40,383 bases of DNA from Candidatus Mediterraneibacter intestinipullorum. Its GTDB lineage: Bacteria > Bacillota > Clostridia > Lachnospirales > Lachnospiraceae. The DNA is taken from NCBI GenBank assembly GCA_019118665.1, contig DWYM01000105.1, positions 1 through 40,383 of the forward strand, read 5' to 3'. A program made the translations under genes and the position numbers. Below the pieces are notes generated by a model. It saw nothing but the letters and a program-made list of their open reading frames with translations. It ran no database searches and had not been told where the DNA came from. The number at the start of each line of letters is the position of its first letter. Positions within the stretch are counted from its first letter, which is position 1. Below, piece after piece: positions 1-7,891 of this stretch.

Positions 1-124
1 ACCGGGTAAAGTAAAAAAGTGCTTACCTTACGATGTAAAAATCTGCTTACCAGAGTATGAAAAAAACTCCTTACCATACGGTGTAAAAAACATCTTACCT
101 AACAATGTAAAAAAGTGGTTGACA
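1..124. mobile_element. probable insertion-sequence end with 24-bp tandem repeats
   Basis: Five degenerate direct repeats are visible. The recurring CTTACC block starts at 22, 46, 70 and 94, and a diverged copy (GTTGAC) sits at 118, so the period is exactly 24 bp. Each unit carries an A-rich core of the type TGTAAAAAA. On the minus strand the block begins TGTCAACC at about 124, just where the McrB-like reading frame stops matching its family. Multiple short repeats at an end starting with TG are known for IS21-family elements, which bind transposase there. No transposase lies in the window, so family assignment is inference. Alternatives are another IS type or a plain satellite repeat. Confidence 0.5.
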
Positions 125-460
125 TTTGCACCAGTAATAGAAGGTAGCGTTCTGGTTGTTCAAAACTGGGACAGCATCAAACGAGGTAGGAACTGCAGCA
201 TCAACAGCAAGTTCCCTTGCGAACGCCGTAATAATTTTTACCCTGTTTGATTCCTTTAACTTACTCTTATTAAACAAACCAAATACGGTAAAGGGATCTA
301 TGTCTACAATCTGATTATCTCGCTCCAGTGTAGGCAGATTAATCTCAATCTCTGCATAAACCTTTTTAATGGTTTGAATTAAAGCGGAACGGTTGCCTTT
401 GTAATGAAGTAAGGCTTTAGCAAAAGCCTTATAAAAATCTACCCAGTCAAATTGTGCCAT
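95..460 (-). pseudogene. McrB-like restriction AAA ATPase, N-terminal fragment
   Basis: The frame opens with MAQFDWVDFYKAFAKAL and contains LPTLERDNQIVDIDPFTVFG and VPVLNNQNATFYYW. This matches the N-terminal domain of McrB-type AAA+ GTPase/ATPase subunits of modification-dependent restriction systems, which runs before the motor domain. A full protein would be several times longer. The match ends near residue 110, where the sequence enters the 24-bp repeat block, and the frame stops within it. A very strong ribosome binding site (GAGGAGGTG, 465-473) sits six bases from the ATG, so the gene was recently functional. It lies 235 bp downstream of the methyltransferase operon on the same strand. 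Walker motifs and the McrC partner are absent, so restriction activity is lost here. Confidence 0.7.
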
Positions 461-695
461 TATGCACCTCCTCTATCACTTACTGTTACTAAAGCTAAGA
501 ATTACGACACTCACATTAGTCTTCAAGAACCTAATTGTCTAAAAATAAAAGAATATCTTCTTCAAACTCACTTTCCCCATAAATACATTATATAACTGAT
601 ACTTTTTTGGACAGATAAATTACTGTATACTGATGTTACAATATAAGAGCACTCTAAAACAATACATAAATCGTCTGAACCTTGTGCCAGGAATT

Positions 696-3623
696 TTAAT
701 TTCTTAATCTATTATTAAAATCAAATTCTAACTGTTCATAGTCACTTTTCTCATAATTAAATTCTATTTGAATTTCAGTTCCAGAAATTTTTTTTGTAAT
801 ATTAAAATCCCCTTCTCCATTAAAAAATGTTGATATTTTATTTCTTTTAAGGCACCATTTATTTTTTCGCATATAAATTGGAAATTTTAAACGAATTAAT
901 AATTCATCCTTTCTAATCGTATCAACATCAACTCTTGAAATTTCAGGTAATTCAAAAATATCCATCGGTTCTTCTTTATCAAAGAGTTCAATACCATTTT
1001 CATCCTTGCTTTTTTCATTTGAAGTCTTTAACAAAACATAGGCTTTATCAAATCTACCTTTATTCTCGGCTTTTTTTTCTCTAATTTGTTCAAATTGTGC
1101 TAACGTATATCCGTTTTGTTTTAAAATTTCTCCACTTAATTCTCTTAATTCATGTAATATTTTTTTACACTGATCAGAATTATTAACCTGCAGTAAATTA
1201 AAGGCTCCTTGAAGAATTTTCTTTCTATTACCTTCAATATATGGCAAAGGGTTATTTTGTTTTATATTTTCCAACTTCCCATTTATAATAAAATCTAACT
1301 GCACATTACTTTTTTGTCGCTCCATAGCAATTAAAACACTCCTGCCCTCACATTTAGCTATTCTATACTGCTTATATCCCTCTGGAACTGCTCCCTCGAA
1401 TGTAATCACTTTTTTTAGTTCATCTGTACTATTTTCTTGCCATTTATCTCGTGGTAATATATCGTAATTTTTTTCCAATGCACTACATATTTCTTCAAGA
1501 TCAGATAATTCCTCCATTAACTCATCTGATGAAATAGCTCCCAGTATTTCATATGCCTCTTCTATTATTTTATTTTTAATCTCTCTAATCAATCCCACAT
1601 CTTTAATAACTACACATTTAGCATATTCTCCATTCTTTCTTATGATTTCAGGAATACGATCTCTTACCAGTTTATTAAATTGGATTTCATTATCATTTTC
1701 TATTTCTTTTACTTCACGAGAACTCAAAACCGTGACTCCAGTCCGCATTAACTGATAAAAGGAATGTGCTAATGCTGCTCCCTCTAAAAAAATATTGACT
1801 TTTTTTTCTTTACAAATTTTACCTACTTCATTAATAAATTGCTTGCTTCTTAAAAGCTCATCATTTCGTGGATAAATTCGTACAATTCCTACCTCTCTTG
1901 GATCCATTATGCGTAGTTTTTCTAAATCTTCCTCTGTTTCAATAAGCATTTCTTTCTCATAAAAATATTTTTTCTTATATTGCGTATTAAAAGTGGAATG
2001 ATTGGTATAGTAATAACTGTTTCTGTCATACTTTTCATGATACCATGGTAAATTACTAGTTTTATAATATTCTTTGTCTATTCCAACAAACCACATAATG
2101 CTCAATTCTTCACCTACATATTCAGAAATTTTTCGTGCTCTATATGCTATATCTTTTATAATTTCATCGTCAACAATCGTATCTCGCCAATCATACGGTT
2201 GTTTTAATTTCTTTACAATCCATTTCCCATTTTCATCAGGCGCAATGAAACTCTCCTTGTAAGACGATATTTTATTTACTAAAAACTTGTCTTTCTCCAA
2301 ACAGTTTATCTCTGATTTACAAGTATCAACGATAATTCTATCATGCGCATTATAATACAAACCTTCAGGCAACCCCCATAAAGTTTGCATTTCTACTATC
2401 GCTTCTTTCGGCTTCGCATTAACGAATGCAGATATTTTAGCTGGAATAAAGTTATGAAAAATAAAAACATAATCTTTGATTCCATCTTTCTCCAATTGTC
2501 GGCTAGCATTAACCAAAAATTCTTCTGCATCTTTATAACATCTCAGCTCATTACTCCTTTTTAGGAACTGTGCCACCGCTTTATTTTGATTAGCAACATC
2601 CGTACGAATAACCAATGAACCTTTGGTCATAAATTTTATGTCTTCTTGCAATTGACAAGTAATATTACCCTTTTTCAACTCCCTCAACGTCTTCACATCA
2701 TCTAATAAAAATAAAGGTGGAATAACTTCACCTACAGCTTTATAGACAAAAACATTATTAATTTTTGCATATTTTCCTTGATCTGTCTCCGAAATTCTCC
2801 TAAGAATCTGCGGAATAAATTTTTGTCCCTTAAACATTGTAACATCATATTCTTCTGGATTTACCGCTTCGTCGTTTTCAGTTTCAAAATCACATTGCAC
2901 TAAAAACAACTTTTCCTGATCACCTACAAATTCTATATGTACTCTCTTTCTACTATAATAAAAAAATGCGCATGCAATTTTTAAGGTTTCTCTTAGATTG
3001 TAATTAATAAGTAACGGATTTTTCTCATATATTTCCATATCATATTTTCTTCTCCAATTACGCAAATGAACAGATAAAGTCTCTATTTTTTTTCTTTCAT
3101 TCATAAATGAATTTTTAGCCGTTTTTCTTTCATACTCTACAACAAAATCTCTGTTTTCTTTTGCAAATCTTCGTTCATTTGATATATGTCCCGAAATATT
3201 ACAATTAACATATGTTTGAATGATTAATGGCAGACCTACCTTTTTAAGATCAGAATCGCATTTTAATATATTTATTAATTCCATTAATTTTTGTTCTAGA
3301 TTATTCAAATTACATTCTTTCGATTCATATCTTCCTCTCTCAGACATTCCTTCTTTAATTCCAGACGAACGAATAATCAGGTTTTCCCCTAAATTCAATT
3401 CTCGAATTGTATACACAATTCGTTCCATATATTGTTGTACAACTCGATTATTACTCCCCTGTGAAACATTCAAAAAGAAATCTTTATCAACAACAAAAAA
3501 GGGGCGTGTCCAGGCCTTTGGCATGAAACACAACCCCCAAGCTTTTTGTCCAATTTCTTCAACAGACACCTGATTTACAGATAATTTTTTTATTTCATCT
3601 TTTTTTACTATCCAAATCGTCAT
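696..3623 (-). CDS. PPDK_N/ATP-grasp-like protein with internal MazG-like pyrophosphohydrolase domain
   Basis: This 975-aa protein has no full-length relative that I recognise. Residues 80-105 (NLIIRSSGIKEGMSERG) resemble the ATP-binding segment of the pyruvate phosphate dikinase/PEP synthase N-terminal domain. A second, weaker unit follows: GSLVIRTD near 335-342 and a segment ending QTLWGLPEGLYY near 413-424, like the ATP-grasp lobe that precedes the phosphohistidine domain. No phosphohistidine or PEP-binding domain is evident. Residues about 648-720 (FNKLVRDRIPEIIRKNG, then KIIEEAYEI and ELMEELSDLEEI) match the MazG/phosphoribosyl-ATP pyrophosphohydrolase-like family, with acidic clusters suited to Mg binding. 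The last 250 residues are unassigned. The gene overlaps the upstream membrane-protein gene by 29 bp, implying translational coupling. A nucleotide-consuming or nucleotide-modifying role is inference. The DNA is AT-rich compared with the 9-40 kb region. Confidence 0.65.
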   Translation of the reverse strand: MTIWIVKKDEIKKLSVNQVSVEEIGQKAWGLCFMPKAWTRPFFVVDKDFFLNVSQGSNNRVVQQYMERIVYTIRELNLGENLIIRSSGIKEGMSERGRYESKECNLNNLEQKLMELINILKCDSDLKKVGLPLIIQTYVNCNISGHISNERRFAKENRDFVVEYERKTAKNSFMNERKKIETLSVHLRNWRRKYDMEIYEKNPLLINYNLRETLKIACAFFYYSRKRVHIEFVGDQEKLFLVQCDFETENDEAVNPEEYDVTMFKGQKFIPQILRRISETDQGKYAKINNVFVYKAVGEVIPPLFLLDDVKTLRELKKGNITCQLQEDIKFMTKGSLVIRTDVANQNKAVAQFLKRSNELRCYKDAEEFLVNASRQLEKDGIKDYVFIFHNFIPAKISAFVNAKPKEAIVEMQTLWGLPEGLYYNAHDRIIVDTCKSEINCLEKDKFLVNKISSYKESFIAPDENGKWIVKKLKQPYDWRDTIVDDEIIKDIAYRARKISEYVGEELSIMWFVGIDKEYYKTSNLPWYHEKYDRNSYYYTNHSTFNTQYKKKYFYEKEMLIETEEDLEKLRIMDPREVGIVRIYPRNDELLRSKQFINEVGKICKEKKVNIFLEGAALAHSFYQLMRTGVTVLSSREVKEIENDNEIQFNKLVRDRIPEIIRKNGEYAKCVVIKDVGLIREIKNKIIEEAYEILGAISSDELMEELSDLEEICSALEKNYDILPRDKWQENSTDELKKVITFEGAVPEGYKQYRIAKCEGRSVLIAMERQKSNVQLDFIINGKLENIKQNNPLPYIEGNRKKILQGAFNLLQVNNSDQCKKILHELRELSGEILKQNGYTLAQFEQIREKKAENKGRFDKAYVLLKTSNEKSKDENGIELFDKEEPMDIFELPEISRVDVDTIRKDELLIRLKFPIYMRKNKWCLKRNKISTFFNGEGDFNITKKISGTEIQIEFNYEKSDYEQLEFDFNNRLRN

Positions 3624-4188
3624 GATCTTCTTTTATATCCTCATCAATCTTATCATTAATACTATCTCTGTTATTTACACCATTATCTGACTTTAAAAAT
3701 AAAACACATGCTACATCATACATTTTACTCACGGCTTCGTCTGAAAAATACCCAGTCAAAAATCCTATTGATATGGCCATTGAACTAGACGAAAGTACGG
3801 CTTTGACCATAATGGCCGCCATTACAAGAGACAATGATACCGCAATAAACGGTGAAAAGAATCTCCAGTACACTCTATCTTCATTCCATAATCCCCTGGC
3901 AACAACTCTATAAAAATACTTCATTCCAAAAGTTGAGCCGCCTAAGAGCCCTGAAGACACACAATAAATAACTTTATGAAATACTATTTTTTGATCACCC
4001 TGTACTCCTAAAAAATCCTCAAATACACCTAAGAAATTCAAGAAAACACATACTAAAGCTAAAATCATCAAAAATGTTATGTATATTGCATCTCGAATAA
4101 TTTTTATCCTGCAACGCTTATCCTCATATCGAGTCTTGTATTCACCTTTGATTCTACCATCGTTAGAAAGATTTTCCTCATTATTCAT
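3595..4188 (-). CDS. four-helix membrane protein, putative effector of the island operon
   Basis: This is a 197-aa protein of unknown family. A charged N-terminus (about 1-33) is followed by hydrophobic segments near 34-54, 68-90, 111-130 and 136-148, and then a soluble acidic-basic tail rich in D, N and K. The segment between the second and third helices is basic and aromatic (KYFYRVVARGLWNEDRVYW). The start lies three bases after the HIT gene stop, and the end overlaps the following PPDK_N-like gene by 29 bp. All four genes are therefore packed as one transcript. Small multi-helix proteins of this kind often act as membrane-disrupting effectors in prokaryotic conflict systems, for example SLATT-type proteins. 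That role is inferred only from layout and topology, and a plain membrane anchor for the neighbours is also possible. Confidence 0.6.
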   Translation of the reverse strand: MNNEENLSNDGRIKGEYKTRYEDKRCRIKIIRDAIYITFLMILALVCVFLNFLGVFEDFLGVQGDQKIVFHKVIYCVSSGLLGGSTFGMKYFYRVVARGLWNEDRVYWRFFSPFIAVSLSLVMAAIMVKAVLSSSSMAISIGFLTGYFSDEAVSKMYDVACVLFLKSDNGVNNRDSINDKIDEDIKEDHDDLDSKKR

Positions 4189-4191
4189 AAC

Positions 4192-4827
4192 TTAATCCTT
4201 TAACATATCATGAGTTTCTTCAGCAATTTCCATAAACCAATTTGTCTTGTAGTCATACTTCTCAAAACAATTTTCTTTTTTTGCCAACAACTTTCTAAAA
4301 AATTGCGATTCTGGTTTTTCAATAATATGTAGGTACCCTTTGATATTGTCCATATTATTTATATCTTCACTGTAAAACCAATATTCATTATCCCCTACAA
4401 TTCCACTTATGTCTTTAGCTTTACATTCAATCCATTCTTTTTGATAATGGAACATCTCGCTTAATAACGATTTATCATATGGTACAATATGAATATGTGC
4501 ATGATTAGTACCACATGCAGTTAGCGAACCTTCATGATTTGCTCCATGTTCAAATAAAATACAATCCTTGGAATATGCATTCTTTATTCTTTTTATTATT
4601 TCATTCGAGAGGCTTATAAATTCTAAATCATTATATTTGTCTTTCATGCAGTATATATGCTCTTTGGGGATAACCAATGTCCACCCTTTAATAAAACTTC
4701 CCAAACTCGCTAATGCAATATATTTTTCAGTTCTAATTATTGGATTATCAATTTTTCCTAATTCATACTGGCCTTGAAATATTTTGCAATATCGACATTC
4801 CAGACCACATACTATTTTTTTTTCCAT
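4192..4827 (-). CDS. HIT-family nucleotide hydrolase/transferase
   Basis: This 211-aa protein carries the histidine triad at residues 109-113 within CGTNHAHIHIVPYD, the His-x-His-x-His motif of HIT enzymes that hydrolyse or transfer nucleoside monophosphates. Upstream are the usual strand features: GWTLVIPKEH near 49-57 and FEHG near 92-95. CRYC at 11-14 resembles the zinc-binding pair seen in some HIT proteins. It is longer than a minimal HIT protein (about 110-150 aa), with an extra C-terminal 90 residues of unknown role. It lies 14 bp after the methyltransferase stop with an AAGGATG-type ribosome binding site, and three bases before the membrane-protein gene. In this operon it may make or remove a nucleotide signal or nucleotidylated product, which is inference. 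Confidence 0.8.
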   Translation of the reverse strand: MEKKIVCGLECRYCKIFQGQYELGKIDNPIIRTEKYIALASLGSFIKGWTLVIPKEHIYCMKDKYNDLEFISLSNEIIKRIKNAYSKDCILFEHGANHEGSLTACGTNHAHIHIVPYDKSLLSEMFHYQKEWIECKAKDISGIVGDNEYWFYSEDINNMDNIKGYLHIIEKPESQFFRKLLAKKENCFEKYDYKTNWFMEIAEETHDMLKD

Positions 4828-4841
4828 AATATCACATCCTT

Positions 4842-5714
4842 TTAGTAAAAAAATATCTTTATATTATTTTTATTCAACTCTTCATTGGAAGGGCACAGCA
4901 TTTTATTTTTAAATATTATGATCTCTGATTTTGTCTCGCTTTTCACTAAACTATATGACAATTTATAGGTTTTGTAAAAATCATTTTTATAAATTTCCTT
5001 AATCTCTTCTGTATCATCATATGTAATAATCCATTCACACGACACCTTATTTTTAATATAAGCTGCGATTTCTTTATGGTCTTTTTGAGACAAACTATTT
5101 TTATATAATCTATTCCCTTTTCGATAATAAGGCGGATCAAAATATACAAAACCATTCTCTGAATATTTAGGAAGAACTTGTTCAATAAATGCTCTAATTT
5201 CTTTATTGTATATATATATATTTTTTTTTAATTTTGCAATATTCTTTATTCTTTGTATCAGCTTTTCTTTATTATATCGAACATCTAAAGAATATGCACC
5301 CTGCTGTGTATATCCACCAATGGGACCCGCATTCAATATTCCTGATCTATTCGTTCTATTCAAAAAAAAAGTTGCAAAAGCTAGTTCAACCGAATATCTA
5401 TTAGCATTATTCACATAAACTTCCTTTTGTTTATACCATTCGCCAATAGTAACTTCTGTATTTTTTATTAGCTCAATTAATCTATCAGTTTCTTCAATTA
5501 CTGCTCTCCAAAAAGAATAAATAGCTTTATCATAATCATTAATTACTATTCTCTTTACTTCACCTGAAAATAATAAATCCAACGCAACTCCGGCACCTCC
5601 AGCAAACGGTTCTATATAAGTCTCTATCTTATCTTCAGACTTATGAATAATACCTTTTACGCATGGAGAAAATTTTGCTTTCCCTCCTGGATATCTTAAT
5701 GGTGAGTAATTCAT
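4842..5714 (-). CDS. D12-class N6-adenine DNA methyltransferase (Dam-like)
   Basis: This protein (290 aa from the chosen start) transfers a methyl group from S-adenosylmethionine to adenine N6 in DNA. Evidence is the N-terminal NYSPLRYPGGKAKF motif, the SAM-binding YIEPFAGGAGVAL, and the catalytic FDPPYY (DPPY) motif, in the order typical of D12/Dam-type enzymes. An ATG 33 bases further upstream is open but rejected. The ATG at 5714 follows an ideal GGGAGGTGG site, and the promoter at 5752-5781 would start transcription near 5745. It is the first gene of the island operon, followed by the HIT gene 14 bp later. No cognate restriction enzyme is adjacent apart from the broken mcrB-like gene. The enzyme could protect self DNA in a defence system or be a solitary methylase. 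Confidence 0.88.
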   Translation of the reverse strand: MNYSPLRYPGGKAKFSPCVKGIIHKSEDKIETYIEPFAGGAGVALDLLFSGEVKRIVINDYDKAIYSFWRAVIEETDRLIELIKNTEVTIGEWYKQKEVYVNNANRYSVELAFATFFLNRTNRSGILNAGPIGGYTQQGAYSLDVRYNKEKLIQRIKNIAKLKKNIYIYNKEIRAFIEQVLPKYSENGFVYFDPPYYRKGNRLYKNSLSQKDHKEIAAYIKNKVSCEWIITYDDTEEIKEIYKNDFYKTYKLSYSLVKSETKSEIIIFKNKMLCPSNEELNKNNIKIFFY

Positions 5715-5751
5715 TTTCTCCACCTCCCGATTTGCAGACTTACCCATAGTT

Positions 5752-5781
5752 ATTATACTATGTATGTGTCTTATTCGTCAA
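5752..5781 (-). promoter_or_regulatory. sigma-A-type promoter of the methyltransferase operon
   Basis: On the minus strand a TTGACG -35 box (5776-5781) and a perfect TATAAT -10 box (5752-5757) are separated by 18 bp. Initiation would fall near 5745, giving a leader of about 30 bases before the ATG at 5714. This supports the shorter start of the methyltransferase and an operon transcribed independently of the upstream decayed region. Confidence 0.7.
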
Positions 5782-6328
5782 TGATTCCTACCATATCTGG
5801 AGTTTCCTGTGGAATAATTCATTTCTAAAACAACTATTATAAAAAATCTTCTCATTCAGCAATGTCTCTGTTAATAGCCTCGCACATCATTTCTCCTTGT
5901 TTTGATATTATTTACTTTACATAACACAAAAAGCACATTTCTTGTCTTGTACTCTCTTTCATAGTTTTAATTGCAGGCACCAATTATTATATTATAGAAA
6001 TCAAATAAATCTATGATCATATAGCTCAATTCTACACTAATAAAAATAACAATCATCTTGTAGATGAAAAATAAATACTGCTTAGTTCTCTGTTTGAATA
6101 AACTTGAATAATAATTTTCTCTTTTACTACACCATTTACTACACCATTTTCTTTCAAAATGACGATTTTTGACGCTCTCAGACAAAAAGTAAGAACCCGC
6201 AAAAACCTTGTAAAATAAGGCTTTACGGGCTCTGACACCACAGGACAAAACCACCCCAAACGAGCCAATAGGTGACTGCTAATTTTAAGAAAATGTGCAA
6301 TTCCTATTTTGCTTGATTTATAAGGATA
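5782..6328. other. non-coding boundary region with imperfect inverted repeat
   Basis: No convincing gene was found in about 550 bp. An imperfect hairpin pairs 6196-6209 with 6217-6229 (arms CCCGCAAAAACCTT and AAGGCTTTACGGG), without a T tract on either side. A 12-bp direct repeat (TTACTACACCAT, two copies) lies near 6124-6147. Two overlapping minus-strand frames of 71 and 95 codons cover the hairpin but have biased, non-protein-like composition. A tiny frame near 5870-5910 has a good AAGGAG site but encodes only a dozen residues. Composition changes from AT-rich on the left to more balanced on the right, so this may be an edge of the acquired island. No integrase is visible. Confidence 0.35.
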
Positions 6329-7891
6329 TTATACTGTCGATGGACGAGTCGCAAACTCGACGCTCACTCTTATCAGCGCCTTGAAGATATACTTGTACAA
6401 CGCATTAAAGTCTTTTTCCTTGTCGATCCACCGTATTCGGGATTAGTGCAGTATATACTTGCCTGACATTTTGTATGCAGATCTTCGATTATTTCAGATG
6501 CCGCCTCATAAGTCGCCTCTACACCTTCAAGTCGTGCATCAATGTAGACATATTTACTTTTGAACAACCGTTTTGCAAACTCAAGACTTTTTGAGAGAGT
6601 AATGTCTTCCCAATCATCAAACAAATTTTCGCAGACGGTCTGATAGTTTTCCATATCTGTCGTCATAAAGAGCACCTTGAATATCTGAACCCCCCATGTT
6701 TCAACTGTCTGTCTTTCATCTACCCATGCAGAACCATCCGGAAGGGCGACAGCAGATAAGACAGCACTTGCATACTCACCGTCCTGGCTGTCGCTGCATG
6801 TGAAGATGACTTCGCCGTATTTCGCAGCAGCGGTGAGTGTGCTTGCCGTCTCTCCGTACGCCCAGTCCGCAATGGAGAGTTCTTCTGTCCACTCGTTTGC
6901 TGTATGGCTGATGGTAAATTCCAGTTCATCCGTACCGCTGCTGTAAGCATCGTCCGCTTCCACTCTGGCGATGACCTTATAACTTCCGGCATCCGCAGGC
7001 GCTTCCTTGATCTGCTTCCAGCCACCAGAACTCCGTCATATGGCTTCCTCATCTCATCTGCTTTTGTTGGAATGGAAAGTGTACTAACCTGCTTTACAGT
7101 AACCTCACAGGAAACAGATTACCCTCCTGATGTCGCTTTAATGGTAGTCGTCCCCGGACTTACTGCTGTCACCTCAGCATTCAGCATTTGACATGCTTCC
7201 TGAATCCGTTGCCACCTCTGTCTTACTGTTCTCCCAGAATACAGGCAGATTTTCATACCCCTCAATAGTAGTTGAACCTATTTGTACACTGAGATTTTCT
7301 GTCCTTTCATCAACTGTATCAAGGGACAGGGAAGATTTGTCAATGCTCAGAACATTGTCGCCAAAGTTTACTGTCCCCCCAGAATAGTAAAAATATTGAA
7401 TATCCGCTGTGTTCAAATTAGCCGTGCCCCCGGAAACATCAACTTGGCACACTCTAGCTCCGCTCTCGATAGTCGTAGTTGCTCTGTTTGTCCATAACAC
7501 TTCAATTTTTCTGCCATTTACAGTCGTATTCCCCCGCCTACAGTCTGAACATCTCTAGCTTCTCCACCGTTTACAATCATATTTCCGCTACTTTCTACCG
7601 GAGCTCTAAATGTTCCGCCGTTTATGTATAAGACTCCTCCCATATTGCCATAGCTGCTATTAACGTAAGAGTTGTATATTTATTACCCTCCGAATCCTGC
7701 GCTACATATACTTCCTCTGATGGCATGGTATCCTTTTCATCGGAAAGACTGTTTGCCGCGGTCTCCACATCCGTCACAGTCTCTGTTTTCCCTTCCCCTG
7801 CTCCCTGTGCATAGGCATGGTGCGCGATATAGATGATTCTCATGACCGCCGCCAGCGCACAGGCAGTCACATTTCTCCATCTTTTGTTCAC
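6329..7891 (-). pseudogene. shattered secreted surface protein with Ig-like repeats
   Basis: Reading the minus strand from 7891, several frames must be joined. The first piece (7891-7622) has a signal-peptide-like start (MNKRWRNVTACALAAVM). After a shift come glycine-rich stretches (GGVLYINGGTFRAP), then a piece at 7500-7174. A BIG2-like fragment follows (AEVTAVSPGTTTIKATSGG) with a stop inside it, then another Ig-like repeat containing KYGEVIFTCSDSQDGEY near 6850-6760. From about 6700 onward the sequence changes to an unrelated segment that I do not recognise. A further shift near 6420 would extend it to a stop at 6329 (ending FATRPSTV). At least three frameshifts and a nonsense codon are needed, so this is a dead gene or a mosaic of two dead genes. 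Confidence 0.7.

Follow-up and report, generated by a model that had tools for sequence, protein, structure and literature searches.

A recurrent cluster of HIT, membrane and PPDK_N-like/MazG genes, usually with a D12 methylase gene, as a candidate horizontally moving defence system

Do four unlike genes that stand together at one end of a bacterial contig form one working unit, and what might such a unit do? The question is raised by contig DWYM01000105.1 of Candidatus Mediterraneibacter intestinipullorum (assembly GCA_019118665.1), of which positions 1 to 40,383 were analyzed as one stretch, here called the window. A sequence-only reading of the window had proposed an undescribed defence operon whose products would be a Dam-like methylase, a HIT protein, a four-helix membrane protein, and a fusion of PPDK_N and MazG parts. 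The coordinates confirm that the four genes all lie on the minus strand, spaced by 14 bp, 3 bp, and a 29-bp overlap. The proposed AT-rich island was also recovered, the GC content being 30.0% in the operon versus 49.6% from position 6400 onward. In this right flank, 58 overlapping 5-kb stretches had a mean GC content of 50.0% and a minimum of 45.6%; to the left of the operon the contig comprises only 695 bp.

Recurrence and co-inheritance of the genes

When plasmids were searched with the large protein, a single relative with 24% identity turned up on a plasmid of Caulobacter (locus L001), where genes for a HIT-like and a membrane protein precede the large gene in the same order as in the window. 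With a profile built from the window and Caulobacter large proteins, the MazG part being omitted, we scanned the genomes of 84,980 species, each represented by a single genome. The pattern was matched by 353 stretches, of which 14 encode a relative of the large protein; as the scan requires exact short patterns, it is not exhaustive. Together with L001, the window, L078, L085, and L136 (a further Nitrosomonas copy), 19 loci were available. L046, which starts partway through the large gene, had to be set aside, leaving 18 informative loci including the window.

HIT and membrane genes accompanied the large gene in all 18 informative loci, and a D12 methylase gene was present in 11 of 14 non-redundant ones. 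The genes are thus not mostly apart in other genomes, and the co-occurrence on which the sequence-only reading depended is recurrent. The HIT and membrane genes adjoin the large gene in 17 of the 18 loci. In the remaining case, L048, the contig starts partway through the large gene; a HIT gene, a membrane gene, and the start of a large gene are found at the end of a second contig from that genome (L087). At L047 the HIT-membrane pair is inverted and all four genes are kept.

Within the three-gene core, the pairwise protein distances of 14 loci were strongly correlated (r = 0.89 for large and membrane, 0.86 for large and HIT, and 0.86 for membrane and HIT proteins), and 0 of 5,000 permutations gave values as high. 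When the alphaproteobacterial branch was left out (12 loci), the values were 0.90, 0.79, and 0.86, respectively. The distances of the large protein and the methylase were correlated with an r of 0.58 (11 loci, permutation fraction 0.0006). The difference between 0.86 to 0.89 for the core and 0.58 for the methylase indicates that the core was inherited together and that the methylase is linked more loosely. The presumed catalytic residues are conserved almost throughout. As the four genes travel together in very distant bacteria, the HIT, membrane, and PPDK_N-like/MazG genes, usually with the D12 methylase gene, very probably form one functional unit, and we see little room for doubt in this sequence-based conclusion.

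The methylase gene is found in 14 of the 18 informative loci and adjoins the core in all of these except L078, where it lies 3.2 kb upstream on the opposite strand with a transposase gene in between. For the non-redundant count, L039, L045, and L136, whose large proteins are 99.5% identical to that of L038, were counted once with it, as were L001 and L050 (93.6% identical); L040 and L049 (86.7% identical) were counted apart, and merging them would give 10 of 13. The gene is located upstream on the same strand in the window, L037, and the L038 group, and downstream on the opposite strand in L040, L041, L042, L044, L047, L048, and L049. At L043 the methylase status was not scorable, the contig ending 123 bp past the large gene. 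The proposed four-gene operon as a unit stands for the HIT, membrane, and large genes, which are constant, and needs amendment for the methylase, for which no D12 gene was found near L050/L001 and L085. These loci form a divergent alphaproteobacterial branch with large proteins 22 to 24% identical to that of the window, and D12 methylation therefore cannot be essential there. Upstream at L001 there is a gene of another class, a class I methyltransferase by annotation and not of the D12 type, which had no Pfam match. From these comparisons the core looks like a set of three genes, with the methylase exchangeable or absent.

Domains and conserved residues

Taken alone, the window's 975-amino acid (aa) protein gave no confident Pfam match and no MazG-like domain by Pfam. 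At the family level the MazG part of the proposed fusion was clearly recognized: hhalign comparison with eight small MazG-like proteins of the window's phylum gave 99.6% with an expectation value (E) of 6e-25. With a limit of E 1, Pfam PRA-PH was recognized in 10 of the 15 family members (the best at 4.7e-5; the family consensus, with E 0.035, was weaker than this single sequence), and residues E688, E689, E692, E705, and D708 are present in 14 of 14 loci. The PPDK_N part of the claim found weaker support, with Pfam matches in 2 of 15 family members (best E 0.11) and at best 71% in hhalign. The profile used for the latter comparisons was derived from 20 PPDK/phosphoenolpyruvate (PEP)-synthase-type proteins from 50 loci, selected as readable frames of more than 400 aa bearing RSS. 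The whole large protein aligned with it on the RSS-E-G block (32.5%, E 4.7e-4); no decoy, among one reversed and five column-shuffled profiles compared with the whole protein, scored better than E 0.32. Residues 1 to 262 alone reached the 71% with E 3.6e-5 against the PPDK_N profile, with a second collinear segment at the EW..Q block (E 0.0058). The GK motif was aligned in a weaker PPDK_N run (12%, E 0.0023). The residues of this half listed in Table 1 are invariant, K27 being found in 13 of 13 copies, and H620 in LEGxxLxH is invariant in 14 of 14 loci. A search of the PDB by sequence gave nothing useful for the large protein. We rejected the possibility that this protein is widespread in the window's phylum: at least 10 of 195 and at least 55 of 398 genomes had matches, the window's own included, and the others concern the MazG part only, being confined to residues 564 to 735 or model columns 664 to 812 (the MazG part and its edge).

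The window HIT protein matched Pfam HIT above the cut-off (E 8.8e-5), and HIT proteins in the PDB were matched by profile (best E 2e-6). H111 and H113 occur in 14 of 14 loci and H109 in 13 of 14. The C-terminal extension is partly common to HIT proteins on plasmids of Streptomyces, Parabacteroides, and Lactococcus. The respective genes adjoin a dCTP-deaminase-like gene in Streptomyces, are lined up with genes for ThyX and dihydrofolate reductase (DHFR) in Parabacteroides, and adjoin a class-V aminotransferase gene in Lactococcus, neighbours that weakly indicate nucleotide chemistry. Six of the eight plasmid HIT matches were inspected, by an annotation lacking membrane proteins, and the core was seen only at the Caulobacter locus. 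Among the extended-HIT loci L003 (5468 to 8764), L005, and L007, those on Streptomyces plasmids also have a cysteine-desulfurase-type gene nearby, and these loci are possibly another undescribed nucleotide-related cassette.

For the membrane protein, four helices had been proposed. By a simple hydropathy scan the window protein has two strong segments, whereas 3 of 12 aligned proteins have four, so that the proposal was borne out in part. The window protein matched phrog_22917 (E 5e-11), and a PDB search by sequence found no convincing relative (best E 0.83). Of 16 positions chosen for their conservation in the first alignment, 15 are identical in 14 of 14 loci, and each of 13 genomes holding the locus contains one match to the membrane gene. 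More distant relatives were seen elsewhere. One lies at L079 (6989 to 7516), with a Cas3-like gene on one side and an MBL gene on the other, and with further genes downstream that resemble cas genes by eye; another, at L135 (6187 to 6699), precedes a gene with MBL-type PDB relatives; a third, at L086, has by eye no MBL or Cas3-like neighbour. An E2/ThiF-like reading, made by eye, of a gene near the L135 relative gave no PDB match and led no further.

The window methylase matched Pfam MethyltransfD12 (E 4e-27) and the PADLOC model PD-Lambda-5_B (E 1.2e-112), which was the best PADLOC model for all six system methylases scanned (window plus five others). GGK and DPP are invariant in 11 of 11 sequences and DPPY is present in 10 of 11. 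Among PDB entries, the DpnII methylase is related to it (E 2.4e-8).

Distribution and genomic setting

In the searches of the window's phylum, of the Burkholderia genome's order, and of the Caulobacter genome's class, scoring was limited to the first 2 to 11 candidates from each genome, so that the counts are lower bounds. No close match to the membrane protein was found in 397 other genomes sampled from the window's phylum; the recurrence, which the sequence-only reading had proposed to look for in Bacillota, was observed mostly in proteobacteria. We therefore rejected the idea that the system is common in this phylum, the window being the only one among 398 genomes with a close membrane protein. 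At least 2 of 399 genomes in the Burkholderia order had one (the third match, 45 bits, is distant), as had at least 2 of 289 in the Caulobacter class (third match distant, 28 bits) and 3 of 81 in the genus of Nitrosomonas ureae, the centre genome being included each time. In the Burkholderia genus the only one of 65 was the centre itself, the second match (31 bits) being distant. According to the record titles, the loci belong to Nitrospirae, beta-, gamma-, and alphaproteobacteria, Desulfovibrio, Lentisphaeria, and Bacteroidetes. L039 and L046 are titled Bacteroidetes yet carry the Nitrosomonas-type system, L039 together with its flanks, and are probably mis-binned. Along 13 kb of DNA, L039 and L038 agree at 96%; this likeness and the Nitrosomonas-type sequence make the Bacteroidetes titles doubtful.

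The settings point to mobile DNA. The Nitrosomonas copies lie near a RadC-like gene, an ArdC homologue (E 8.5e-41), and a gene for a VirD4-type coupling protein (E 1.4e-22), a setting that by these matches is probably a conjugative element. At L078 a transposase gene occurs in two copies that flank the system. A type IV restriction enzyme gene adjoins the HIT gene at L087 (PADLOC, 1.5e-204), and a type I methylase is among the neighbours at L041. Eighty neighbouring open reading frames (ORFs) were pooled (at least 140 aa, within 6 kb, from 12 loci, plus one from L087). At 1e-15 they matched 30 PADLOC families, with one protein each for the 25 listed and many of the matches coming from the same two proteins. 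As counts that have no background rate, these neighbours lend modest support to a defence setting. Searches of viral contigs with five queries and of phages by tblastn with three proteins gave nothing useful.

At the edge of the island lies a repeated noncoding element of 165 bp (Table 1). It had matches in 31 of 58 genomes of the genus, including the window's own, and 14 other genomes hold at least 145 bp of it at 89 to 98% identity. Because other genomes of the genus share this element, we rejected the idea that the contig had been mis-binned. Copies were mapped in L095 to L100; in three genomes (G045, G019, and G043) a contig carries three whole or partial copies on one strand, 3 to 12 kb apart. 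The genes beside the copies vary and include HD-CE/HATPase, McrBC-like (below the cut-off), and cytosine methylase genes. Because such variable genes adjoin the copies, the element may be a junction, and on this pattern it may belong to a cassette-like mobile platform carrying defence genes.

Among the 33 promoter-like sites in positions 1 to 7000, the proposed promoter scores highest. Shuffled sequence averages 33.3 sites, so the presence of such sites is in itself uninformative, and the promoter stands as a candidate. No terminator-like site was found in the same positions, where 2.6 are expected in shuffled sequence. A neighbouring ORF at 95 to 460 (121 aa) had been called mcrB-like, an assignment that was not upheld by the searches: Pfam gave nothing better than E 0.08, and PADLOC gave nothing. 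Its likeness to an McrB N-terminus is one judged by eye, and the ORF breaks off at the contig end. Beside it, positions 11 to 120 contain four copies of a 24-bp tandem repeat.

Table 1. Coordinates of the operon and of associated features in the window
Feature	Position	Strand	Remarks
D12-class (Dam-like) N6-adenine DNA methylase	4842-5714	minus	DPPY motif; ORF open to 5747
HIT-domain protein, 211 aa	4192-4827	minus	Histidine triad HAHIH intact; conserved C-terminal extension with SQFFR motif
Small membrane protein, 197 aa	3595-4188	minus	Conserved loop VARGxWHxDRxxWR and GFxxGYFxD
Large protein, 975 aa	696-3623	minus	PPDK_N-like part, middle region, MazG-like domain, C-terminal region
PPDK_N-like (ATP-grasp) half, residues 1-262	2838-3623	minus	K27, R85-S-S, E91, Q136, E231, Q243
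Codon of invariant H620 in LEGxxLxH	1764-1766	minus	Possible phosphohistidine residue, judged from the motif only
MazG-like nucleoside triphosphate (NTP) pyrophosphohydrolase domain	1377-1688	minus	EExxE...ExxD intact
Promoter-like site TTGACG-18-TATAAT	5752-5781	minus	Matches 11 of 12 positions; candidate
Repeated noncoding element, 165 bp, at island edge	6122-6286		34-bp inverted repeat at 6196-6229 (by eye); possible recombination site

Proposed role and comparison with known systems

The recurrence of the genes, their patchiness, their mobile settings, their defence neighbours, and the methylases of the PD-Lambda-5_B type make it likely that the unit serves in defence against phages or other mobile DNA. 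As the best explanation we propose a horizontally moving multi-gene defence system whose methylase marks self, which on the present comparisons we put at a little short of an even chance. In such a system, infection or unmodified incoming DNA would activate the large enzyme, which would use ATP and act on a nucleotide, first through its ATP-grasp half and then through the MazG pyrophosphohydrolase. The HIT enzyme would trim or destroy the nucleotide product of the large enzyme. This product, or the large protein itself, would switch the membrane protein, which would stop growth or kill the infected cell. The methylase would modify the host DNA such that the system is not triggered, and could be swapped or lost. 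This division of labour between large enzyme, HIT enzyme, membrane effector, and methylase is tentative and may well be wrong.

Several observations weigh against this proposal. The distance correlations partly reflect the shared descent of close loci, and the value for the large and HIT proteins drops to 0.79 when the alphaproteobacterial branch is left out. A phosphohistidine domain at H620 was unsupported, the profile comparison giving E 0.1 on another segment, and so was a second PPDK_N (ATP-grasp) copy in the middle region, suggested by eye (profile E 0.27). In the L047 HIT protein a tyrosine replaces the first histidine of the triad. The alphaproteobacterial branch has no D12 methylase nearby. 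When neighbours were scanned singly, nine of ten had no PADLOC match at E 1e-15, and no known sensor or second-messenger synthase was recognized in the system.

Nucleotide depletion is an unlikely but serious alternative. Here the large protein and the HIT enzyme would destroy or modify dNTPs or NTPs during infection, the membrane protein would be an anchor, and there would be no signal. The MazG-like domain with all its acidic residues fits this view, as do the nucleotide-metabolism genes beside the plasmid HIT relatives (dCTP-deaminase-like in Streptomyces, ThyX and DHFR in Parabacteroides). However, the membrane protein is kept as strictly as the enzymes and has a charged invariant loop, which is more than an anchor needs, and the methylase is left unexplained. 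MazG also appears among the predicted, non-validated defence domains listed for DefensePredictor (PMC13092281), a point in favour of depletion.

To a role outside defence we give an equally low probability. The genes could help to maintain a mobile element, or they could be a cassette for metabolism or signalling, modifying for example a surface or nucleotide metabolite. PPDK_N, HIT, and MazG domains all have housekeeping relatives, and the genes are carried by mobile DNA. Such a role fits poorly with genes that are rare and patchy in distantly related bacteria, that are paired again and again with a DNA methylase gene, and whose neighbours vary.

Still less probable is an arrangement like restriction-modification, in which a complex of the three core proteins attacks DNA lacking the methylase mark. 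The company of the methylase in 11 of 14 non-redundant loci, and its PD-Lambda-5_B type, are what such an arrangement would predict. Yet no nuclease domain reached the Pfam cut-off in the core, the best being pP_pnuc_1 in the large protein (E 0.025, below the cut-off), no PADLOC model matched the core proteins, and one branch (L001, L050, L085) has no D12 methylase. That the genes are chance neighbours in one genome, as the lack of a second full copy among 398 genomes of the window's phylum (a lower bound) might suggest, is refuted by the recurrence of the core in 18 of 18 informative loci and has practically no probability left.

Returning to the proposed self-marking defence system, one further step would be to see in it a new class of immune signalling. 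A PPDK-type ATP-grasp/MazG enzyme would make or sense an unusual phosphorylated nucleotide, the HIT enzyme would end the signal, the membrane family would execute the response, and exchangeable methylases would license self. We rate this as possible but doubtful; if true, one core could be re-aimed by swapping its methylase. To our knowledge, PPDK_N-like and HIT enzymes are unusual in immunity, and we know of no named equivalent of the gene set. Should the role be defence, a system would be added whose three core families match none of the 5,027 models in PADLOC, and the proposal that MazG domains act in defence (PMC13092281) would become directly testable.

The comparison with described systems agrees with the sequence-only reading, which knew of no named system composed of these genes. 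None of the models of PADLOC-DB 2.0.0 (2023) was matched by the window's HIT, membrane, and large proteins at E up to 1, or by those of L037 at E up to 0.01. No paper describing the gene set was found in a literature search that left aside bioRxiv and most subscription journals. With PD-lambda-5 the window shares the D12 methylase of the PD-Lambda-5_B model, which is named after a phage-tested system (PMC9519451; Vassallo 2022). The partner implied by the "_B" label was not recognized, four other window ORFs matching no PADLOC model at E up to 1. Type II restriction-modification systems with a D12 (DpnII-type) methylase likewise share this enzyme and its DPPY motif, whereas here no endonuclease was recognized beside it, the core consists of three other proteins, and in one branch no D12 methylase was found. 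No endonuclease model of Pfam or PADLOC was matched by the operon proteins or ORF 95-460, and a novel type of nuclease is conceivable.

CBASS, Pycsar, and Thoeris combine a nucleotide signal with an effector. The proposed logic of a nucleotide-handling enzyme and a small membrane effector is common to them and the present system, whereas the enzymes here are a PPDK_N-like/MazG and a HIT protein, with no PADLOC match to a CD-NTase, cyclase, or TIR synthase component. The first 262 residues of the large protein appear to share the RSS-E-G and EW..Q blocks with the PPDK, PEP synthase, and rifampin phosphotransferase family; they differ in being fused to a MazG-like domain and in having no recognized phosphohistidine or PEP-binding domain. 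By profile (E 6e-25) the large protein is a clear member of the MazG-like/PRA-PH pyrophosphohydrolases, in which the domain is here part of a large fusion and not a stand-alone house-cleaning enzyme. The broad plan of a self-marking methylase, nucleotide enzymes, and a membrane protein is familiar, and the gene set itself appears to be without a named equivalent.

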